DNA of 5,007 nucleotides, from contig JACOWJ010000056.1 in NCBI GenBank assembly GCA_016176845.1, positions 1 to 5,007 of the forward strand. The letters run 5' to 3'. Both the position numbers and the translations under genes were made by a program. The notes under the pieces were generated by a model. That model saw only the letters and a program-made list of their open reading frames with translations, did not search any database and had not been told where the DNA came from. Positions 2,444 through 5,007 of the stretch are shown piece after piece. Position 1 is the stretch's first letter, and each line of letters starts with the position of its first letter. The DNA is from Nitrospinota bacterium (lineage in GTDB: Bacteria > 2-12-FULL-45-22 > JACOWJ01).

Positions 2444-3559
2444 CTAGCCTCGGATCGTCTCGAAGAAGGCCTGGATTCTGGTCTTCATCTGCCCCAGCCC
2501 CGCTACGGAGTAATCCCGGGTGAGCAACATCGCCGGCACCCCCAGCTCCTTGATATTATCCTTGAATAGAGGGAAATCCTCCCCGTAAAGGTCGCAGAAT
2601 TTGAGGGCCTCGTAGATGATCCCCTCGACGCGGAAGTCCTGGATGAGCTGGCGGGAGCGGGCCATCCGCTCACTGGTAGGCCGCATCCGGGCACAGGGGG
2701 AGCGGCGCAGGTAGCGGTTGGCCAGGGCCTGGAGGGGGTCGCCGTTTACTTTCACGTCGTCCCAGAAGTAGCGCGTCCCATTGCACAGGTCGTCACAGAC
2801 CACCACCCCGCCCAGTTCCTCGATGGTCCGGAGGTACTCTGAGTTGTCCAGCTCGCTGCCGACGACCATCATCCGGATCCGATCCTCCCCTTTGGGGGGG
2901 GATGCCGCCTTGGACTGGAGGGAGCTCAGCAGAAGCTCCAGCTTCCGGTTGTATTCTTCTTTGGGCAGGATGAGGCCCGCCAGGAGAATGTCCATCACCT
3001 CGGCCCCGCTGATGGGAGGGGTGTCGGCCTTGCGCAACTCGTAGAGTTGCCTCAGCAGGGTGCGGGTGCGGTTGTAGACCTCGATGGCCTGCCGGAGGGC
3101 GTCGTCGCTGATCTCTTTGCCCACATGGGCCCCCAACCGCTCCCGGAAGTCGCTCAGCTCCCCCGCGAAATACTCCACGGCCTCCTCGTCGGCCCGGTGG
3201 GGCAGCTTCAGGATGTGGGTGAAGGGGGTGTTCAGGTAGCGGCTCCAGACCTCGTAGAGGCGGCGGACGTTGTCGCAGGTGTTGACGGCGATGTAGCCCG
3301 AGAGGAAATCGTAGCTTCCCCGGAAGCCCTCCTCCAGGGAGGCCCGGGCATAGGAACAGACGTTGGAGTAAAGATAGGCGTCGGCGGTGGTGGTGGTCCC
3401 CCCGGTTCCCACCACCCGGATGGGATGGGCCCCGGCTGCGTGAATGATCTCCTCGGGGACGTAAGTGCACATCCAGCCCATGACGGGCTTTCCCTGGTTG
3501 GCTACGGCCTGGGCCACCTGATGGCGGTTGGAGAAAACATCCTTCAACTCCTGGGTCAT
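2444..3559 (-). CDS. 2-HAD superfamily protein, short-subunit (HgdB/BcrC/BzdN-like) type with a DCCP-like extra cysteine set
   Basis: This 371-aa protein starts at an ATG (3559) preceded by GGAG with 9-nt spacing and ends in TAG. Its length fits the short subunit of the family (about 370-390 aa). N-terminal MGWMCTYVPEEIIHAAG (27-43) is the typical 'P-E-E-I-x-x-A-A-G' entry motif. Family cluster cysteines are C68 (NVCSYAR), C95 (NTCDNVRRLYEVW) and C322 (KFCDLYGEDFP). It also has C31 (CTYVPEE), C255/C259 (CDDLCNGTRYF) and C289 (SPCARMRPTSERM). From memory, the double-cubane cluster proteins (Carboxydothermus DCCP, E. coli YjiM) carry cysteines at these extra places and use six per chain, while simple beta subunits such as HadC lack some. 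The SGAEV stretch near 184 also resembles YjiM. It could therefore be a dehydratase/reductase subunit pairing with a neighbouring large subunit, or a DCCP-like reductase. Both would need an ATPase activator, absent here. Confidence 0.9.
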   Translation of the reverse strand: MTQELKDVFSNRHQVAQAVANQGKPVMGWMCTYVPEEIIHAAGAHPIRVVGTGGTTTTADAYLYSNVCSYARASLEEGFRGSYDFLSGYIAVNTCDNVRRLYEVWSRYLNTPFTHILKLPHRADEEAVEYFAGELSDFRERLGAHVGKEISDDALRQAIEVYNRTRTLLRQLYELRKADTPPISGAEVMDILLAGLILPKEEYNRKLELLLSSLQSKAASPPKGEDRIRMMVVGSELDNSEYLRTIEELGGVVVCDDLCNGTRYFWDDVKVNGDPLQALANRYLRRSPCARMRPTSERMARSRQLIQDFRVEGIIYEALKFCDLYGEDFPLFKDNIKELGVPAMLLTRDYSVAGLGQMKTRIQAFFETIRG

Positions 3560-3584: not shown

Positions 3585-3618
3585 GGATTGAAGCGCCCCG
3601 AAACGGTCGCTTCAATCC
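3585..3618 (-). repeat. 11-bp stem-loop between the first and second 2-HAD genes
   Basis: GGATTGAAGCG at 3585-3595 is the exact reverse complement of CGCTTCAATCC at 3608-3618. Within the 12-nt loop, CCG (3598-3600) can also pair with CGG (3604-3606). In transcript sense it lies between the TGA of the 412-aa gene and the ribosome binding site of the 371-aa gene. An A-tract, not a U-tract, follows it on the minus strand, so termination is unlikely. An intercistronic processing or stabilising hairpin is more plausible. Confidence 0.6.
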
Positions 3619-4904: not shown

Positions 4905-4918
4905 GGCTCCCTGGTATA

Positions 4919-4963
4919 TTAAAAAGAGGGTGATTTGCCATCGTAATCACTGACTCTTTTTAA
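4919..4963 (-). promoter_or_regulatory. Two-part hairpin with U-tracts on both strands, just upstream of the first 2-HAD gene
   Basis: TTAAAAAGAG (4919-4928) is the exact reverse complement of CTCTTTTTAA (4954-4963). Inside it, GTGATT (4930-4935) pairs with AATCAC (4945-4950) around a 9-nt loop, giving 16 bp interrupted by a 1/3-nt internal loop. On the minus strand the stem ends in CTCTTTTTAA, like an intrinsic terminator, and only 14 bases then remain before the ATG at 4904. That leaves no room for a promoter in between. It therefore looks like a leader attenuator or a palindromic operator, or a bidirectional terminator if the gene is transcribed by read-through. Confidence 0.5.
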
Positions 4964-4967
4964 GATA

Positions 4968-5007
4968 CCTCCCTCCTTTCTATTATGATAGGGTTAGCGG
5001 TACTTCG
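4968..5007 (-). promoter_or_regulatory. Possible -10 element and orphan purine-rich Shine-Dalgarno-like tract
   Basis: On the minus strand CATAAT (4987-4982) matches five of six bases of a sigma-70 -10 box; I see no good -35 hexamer before the window edge. Downstream, AAAGGAGGGAGG (4979-4968) looks like a strong ribosome binding site, yet no ATG, GTG or TTG lies at normal distance: the first candidate is a GTG 17 bases further on. This fits a transcribed leader for the 412-aa gene but is weak evidence. Confidence 0.2.

Follow-up and report, generated by a model that had tools for sequence, protein, structure and literature searches.

The systems closest to the locus described here include: (i) the DCCP of Carboxydothermus (PDB 6ENO, 7YYL and 7YZM; curated model NF040772, YjiM group), which is a homodimer with its own activator, (ii) HadC of the (R)-2-hydroxyisocaproyl-CoA dehydratase (PDB 3O3M), which has a single [4Fe-5S] cluster, (iii) MbdN of the 3-methylbenzoyl-CoA reductase (PDB 9G87), and (iv) BzdN of BzdNO, the class I benzoyl-CoA reductase of Aromatoleum sp. 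CIB (PDB 8S02). BzdNO, in which a double-cubane subunit forms a heterodimer with a [4Fe-4S] subunit, was described in 2025 as the first enzyme of the double-cubane type to have a defined catabolic role (PMC11971306). The [8Fe-9S] cluster of BzdN is ligated in the crystal structure by C36, C73, C100, C263, C293 and C327, and in the model for the enzyme an ATP-driven activase supplies electrons, which this double cubane stores and relays to the catalytic [4Fe-4S]-OH2 cluster (PMC11971306).

The window, the whole 5,007-bp stretch analyzed here, is one entire contig (G000:C8) of a 1.53-Mb draft genome that is 68% complete. The minus strand carries all the genes, which follow one another as B (4904-3666), the second large subunit of the contig (412 aa); S (3559-2444), a small, BzdN/DCCP-like subunit and predicted holder of an [8Fe-9S] double cubane, encoded by an intact ORF of 371 aa with an ATG start; A (2099-819), a large, BzdO/HadB-like subunit (426 aa); and a TauE/SafE-type permease (735-1), truncated where the contig stops. 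The other end of the contig lies 103 bp upstream of B (4905-5007, minus strand). S, A and B match the HGD-D domain PF06050 with 349, 220 and 202 bits, respectively, above the gathering score of 28.4 bits, which places all three in the BCR I/HAD superfamily. The family is large in both genomes of this order, with 29 PF06050 matches in the genome of the window (G000) and 67 in the sister genome G001 (Nitrospinae bacterium RIFCSPLOWO2_12_FULL_45_22, MHDQ01), the only same-order genome compared. G001 belongs to 2-12-FULL-45-22, an uncultured class placed by GTDB in Nitrospinota_B (PMC10839748).

The spacers between the genes hold several repeats. The 344 bp that separate S from A form an AT-rich element whose inverted arms of 48 nt (2116-2163 and 2391-2438, 85% complementary) are made of AATTGAAAATTG-type repeats; positions 2116-2438 look like a non-coding repeat element lying between S and its probable partner. 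A long inverted repeat, ACCCACTACCCAGCC...GGCTGGGTAGTGGGT, occupies the space between A and the TauE gene (736-818), and a 14-nt stem, GGATTGAAGCG..., is found between B and S (3585-3618); both are possible terminators or attenuators.

Of the seven cysteine residues of S (31, 68, 95, 255, 259, 289 and 322), six align one-to-one with the crystallographic ligands of BzdN and with cysteines of DCCP. In this alignment, with all codons on the minus strand, C31 (3467-3469) corresponds to BzdN C36 and DCCP C76, C68 (3356-3358) to BzdN C73 and DCCP C114 as well as to HadC C72 and MbdN C85, C95 (3275-3277) to BzdN C100 and DCCP C144, C259 (2783-2785) to BzdN C263 and DCCP C309, C289 (2693-2695) to BzdN C293 and DCCP C341, and C322 (2594-2596) to BzdN C327 and DCCP C374. 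The preliminary description, which had quoted the motifs CTYVPEE, DDLCNGTRYF and SPCARMR from a 371-aa protein exactly as they are found, had taken C68, C95 and C322 as the usual cluster ligands and had placed C31, C259 and C289 where DCCP has its additional ones; the alignment bears out both assignments. It also settles on C259, rather than C255, as the residue at the ligand position: C255 is Ile in BzdN, Gly in DCCP and Cys in only 2/102 homologs. By contrast, all six cysteines are kept in 92/102 related small subunits, and C68, C95 and C322 are Cys in 102/102 as well as in HadC and MbdN. If seven cysteines were placed at random in 371 residues, the six named positions would all be Cys with a probability of ~2e-12; this value, together with the retention in 92 of the 102 homologs, sets the match above chance. 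The residues at the same six positions are Pro, Cys, Cys, Ala, Cys and Cys in HadC and Gln, Cys, Cys, Phe, Tyr and Cys in MbdN. The arginines that surround the distal sub-cluster of BzdN (R53, R267 and R290) are R48, R263 and R286 in S, and BzdN His330 is replaced by Tyr325. Certain other small subunits (L051:11795-12916, L101, L099, L103, L120, L112 and L113) have Ser or Asp in place of one extra double-cubane ligand of an otherwise complete set of six; the replacements are C259 to Ser or Asp and, in Bathyarchaeota, C289 to Ser.

The fold agrees with this assignment. The best PDB match of S is BzdN (8s02_B, E 6.7e-61). The AlphaFold model of S (mean pLDDT 95.4) likewise has BzdN as its first-ranked Foldseek match, on which it superposes at 1.4 Å over 367 residues (Z 52.5), compared to Z 46-47 and 1.8 Å for DCCP and Z 47.7 for HadC. 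Based on the superposition and the one-to-one alignment with BzdN and DCCP, the six cysteines of the modeled S should, by homology, surround the same cavity as in BzdN. Thus, S is very probably a double-cubane subunit, as the one-to-one ligand match to BzdN and DCCP and the near-identical fold to BzdN indicate for its predicted structure, and the double-cubane reading first made from the DNA alone is supported. The alternative offered with that reading, that C31 and C259 are simply common in BcrC-like subunits, is correct in that the extra cysteines are common in BzdN/BcrC-like proteins but not in setting this against a double cubane; the two readings are compatible because in BzdN those extra cysteines are the double-cubane ligands.

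The position of S in the family was determined from trees and curated models. A scan of the named genome contigs with the single protein gave no relatives, and a query with an alignment gave 80 loci. A tree of 54 small subunits, with large subunits as its root, shows BzdN in a clade of its own, DCCP near the base on a long branch, and HadC and MbdN in one supported group (99) with two subunits of the window's own genome that are without some of the extra ligands. S falls outside the BzdN clade and away from DCCP, in a large uncharacterized radiation of six-cysteine proteins from Nitrospinota, Chloroflexota, Desulfobacterota and Asgard archaea. A more careful tree places S in a clade of 11 members, alpha (support 99/98), made up of same-order paralogs and one relative from genome G033. 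Of the curated equivalogs, the NCBIfam double-cubane model for DCCP is the best match (NF040772, 258.3 bits against a cut-off of 350), with BzdN (TIGR03190, 217.9 against 453.8), BcrC (TIGR02263, 184.4 against 421.15) and HadC (NF052456, 173.4 against 700) also below their cut-offs; Thauera BcrC and E. coli YjiM were compared through these curated models in place of sequence alignment.

A and B share 34% identity, and both large subunits keep the three ligands of the [4Fe-4S] cluster (C115, C143 and C373 in A; C100, C128 and C358 in B) and the counterpart of the catalytic BzdO Glu65 (E84 in A; E71 in B). The model of A (pLDDT 91.5) resembles HadB, MbdO and BzdO with Foldseek TM scores of 0.85-0.89. 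Neither A nor B has BzdO Ser44, Trp46 or His131; thus, the substrate pocket differs. An extra Cys lies four residues past the third cluster ligand in both proteins (A C377 and B C362, CxxxC) and in 19/99 large subunits, mostly of the A and B clades, while HadB, BzdO and MbdO have Ser; it might serve the active-site cluster as a fourth protein ligand or as a proton donor. In 10/99 large subunits, the third [4Fe-4S] ligand itself (the BzdO Cys380 column) is His, not Cys.

Of the two, A is the probable partner of S. Among 103 gene chains that hold a small-subunit gene (S for small and L for large subunit), 74 have S directly followed by L and seven have L-S, tandem S-L modules also occur, and in G001 a related S-L-S-L-S cluster adjoins two activase genes. 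The preliminary description had considered a double-cubane subunit between two large-subunit paralogs unusual because DCCPs are homodimers with their own activator; this is not supported, as BzdNO is such a heterodimer and S-then-L, the order in those 74 chains, is the commonest one in the loci sampled. The placement between two large subunits is itself real on the contig but is partly an effect of the contig edge, the B-S-A order being probably a tandem of S-L modules that is truncated there, in which S pairs with A. Just beyond the contig end, upstream of B, there could be a further small-subunit gene; no small-subunit coding tail is visible in the 103 bp between B and that end.

A different choice of partner, with the same double-cubane part, would have one S form alternative complexes with A and B and so serve two substrate specificities from one relay. 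B, S and A lie on one strand, both large subunits appear functional from their residues, and large-subunit genes outnumber small-subunit genes in 8/103 chains, the window included (S-L-L, L-L-S, L-S-L, S-L-L-L and L-S-L-S-L), of which the seven others include S-L-L in Nitrospinota and Asgard archaea. However, B falls (support 100/98) within a large-subunit clade that stands beside the small subunits of clade beta, the neighbor of alpha, and both its grouping with the alpha large subunits (p-AU 0.0006) and the joining of S to beta (p-AU 0.014) are rejected, while placing A among the alpha large subunits is not rejected (p-AU 0.46), even though the branch of A lacks support. The contig, moreover, stops so close upstream of B that B's own small subunit may be missing. 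Sharing of S is therefore an unlikely arrangement, and pairing with A is preferred.

Two further explanations concern the cluster of S rather than its partner. S could be of the HadC type, with a single [4Fe-5S]-like cluster and the extra cysteines as relics, given that S and HadC have the fold (Z 47.7) and the three core ligands in common; however, HadC is missing Cys at 31 and 259 and MbdN at 31, 259 and 289, subunits of this type form a separate derived clade (99), and relics would not persist in 92/102 homologs. This explanation is quite improbable, and the HadC type is rejected on the ligands that HadC does not have. Least probable of all is that S is a strict DCCP, a small-molecule reductase that forms homodimers, has its own activator and lies between large-subunit genes by chance, for while S has all six ligands and the fold (Z 47) in common with DCCP and the double-cubane model as its best curated match, this assignment is rejected by the score of 258 bits (below the 350 required), by a tree that puts S in a radiation of heterodimer small subunits away from the long branch of DCCP, and by a gene context in which large-subunit genes with intact cluster ligands directly flank S and no activase adjoins it, which suggests a heterodimer.

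The double-cubane subunit with A as its partner leads to a proposal for function. S would bind an [8Fe-9S] double cubane through C31, C68, C95, C259, C289 and C322, and a BcrAD/BadFG-family activase, encoded elsewhere in the genome, would supply low-potential electrons at the cost of ATP. By analogy with BzdNO, S should act as an electron store and relay, its double cubane gathering these electrons and handing them to the [4Fe-4S]-OH2 cluster of a large subunit (A most likely, perhaps B as well), where they would be used on a CoA thioester, the net reaction being most probably a reduction. Four BcrAD/BadFG activases exceed the family cut-off in the 68% complete genome and none is on the 5-kb contig; thus, activation in trans is likely. 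As a whole, this proposal of a double-cubane relay, a trans-acting activase and a large-subunit cluster that acts on a CoA thioester is held with high confidence. The six cysteines are no proof of a reductase over a dehydratase, as MbdN is a reductase subunit without three of the six. Benzoyl-CoA itself is unsupported as the substrate, since none of the downstream benzoyl-CoA enzymes Dch, Had and Oah reaches its curated cut-off in the incomplete genomes G000 (68% complete), G001 and G033. The genome of the window also encodes an MbdN-like small subunit (L059, G000:C51) and, at the end of another contig, an MbdO-like large subunit (L061, G000:C40), each grouping with the respective Mbd protein (support 100); they are probably one split methylbenzoyl-CoA-reductase-like pair.

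Certain relatives of these genes may replace a ligand cysteine with selenocysteine. When stop codons are read through in all loci collected, TGA interrupts otherwise intact family members in four cases, all at a cluster-ligand cysteine and all in draft metagenome assemblies, although the four are not fully independent because L072 and L155 are paralogs. One case, from the window's own genome (G000:C14), is a small subunit resembling those of clade alpha, in which the codon at the position of C95 is an in-frame TGA (L052:6941-6943, plus strand; ...GIVACNT-TGA-DHIRRLYDAW...), and an intact large-subunit gene follows downstream. The others are large subunits of G001 with an in-frame TGA at the position of BzdO Cys95, the first ligand of the catalytic [4Fe-4S] cluster (L072:6918-6920, L155:3816-3818 and L152:5490-5492, all plus strand); the L152 protein resembles BzdO, scoring 404 bits where the cut-off is 448.6, and these three are the only family matches with internal stops among the 67 of G001. 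Both G000 and G001 have a tRNA-Sec above its gathering score and a SelB above its cut-off.

Bacterial SECIS hairpins follow criteria of distance from the codon and of loop sequence. A SECIS-like hairpin with a G within the first two loop bases and at the bacterial distance follows all four TGA codons, with joint probabilities of 0.003, 0.028, 0.038 and 0.0015 against synonymous recodings of the four genes, and this level is reached by 4/4 TGA genes compared to 12/242 cysteine homologs. No further TGA occurs among the six best large-subunit candidates per genome (matches in 38/290 genomes, one with TAA), and there is none in three genomes of another phylum. S, A and B of the window have cysteine at all positions where relatives have TGA. 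The words sought as names of the BCR I/HAD family are absent from two selenoprotein reviews (PMC13188914, 2026; PMC9312934, 2022) and a survey (PMC1794560, 2006). It is reasonably likely that in this subfamily cysteine and selenocysteine can stand in for each other as cluster ligands and that BCR I/HAD is a selenoprotein family absent from those accounts. If so, the G000:C14 paralog would hold a double-cubane cluster with one selenolate ligand, and the candidates would test the effect of selenolate on a double cubane or on an active-site cluster of the benzoyl-CoA-reductase type. These candidates are more surprising than the double-cubane assignment of S.

S itself belongs to a kind already known, as the BzdNO heterodimer has been reported. 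Like BzdN, S has the fold, the six ligands and the three arginines, and, as BzdN partners a [4Fe-4S] large subunit, S would likewise pair with such a subunit, encoded beside it. S differs from BzdN in being 32% identical, in lying outside the BzdN clade and in having Tyr325 for His330, and its locus differs from BzdNO in a partner without BzdO Ser44, Trp46 and His131 and in a genome where benzoyl-CoA pathway genes were not found. With DCCP, S shares the six ligands and the fold (Z 46-47) but not the required score, and, unlike DCCP, it adjoins genes for heterodimer partners. With HadC and MbdN, S shares the fold and the three core ligands, whereas HadC has Pro and Ala at the places of C31 and C259 and a single cluster, and MbdN has none of C31, C259 and C289. 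The HadC/MbdN type looks derived, which agrees with the published view of an ancestral double cubane that later lost sub-clusters. What this analysis adds is breadth: among loci sampled by similarity to S, and so not as an unbiased census, six-cysteine small subunits are the commonest form, and an [8Fe-9S] subunit, as predicted from these ligands, would not be confined to DCCP and BzdN but would extend through Nitrospinota, Chloroflexota, Desulfobacterota and Asgard archaea.
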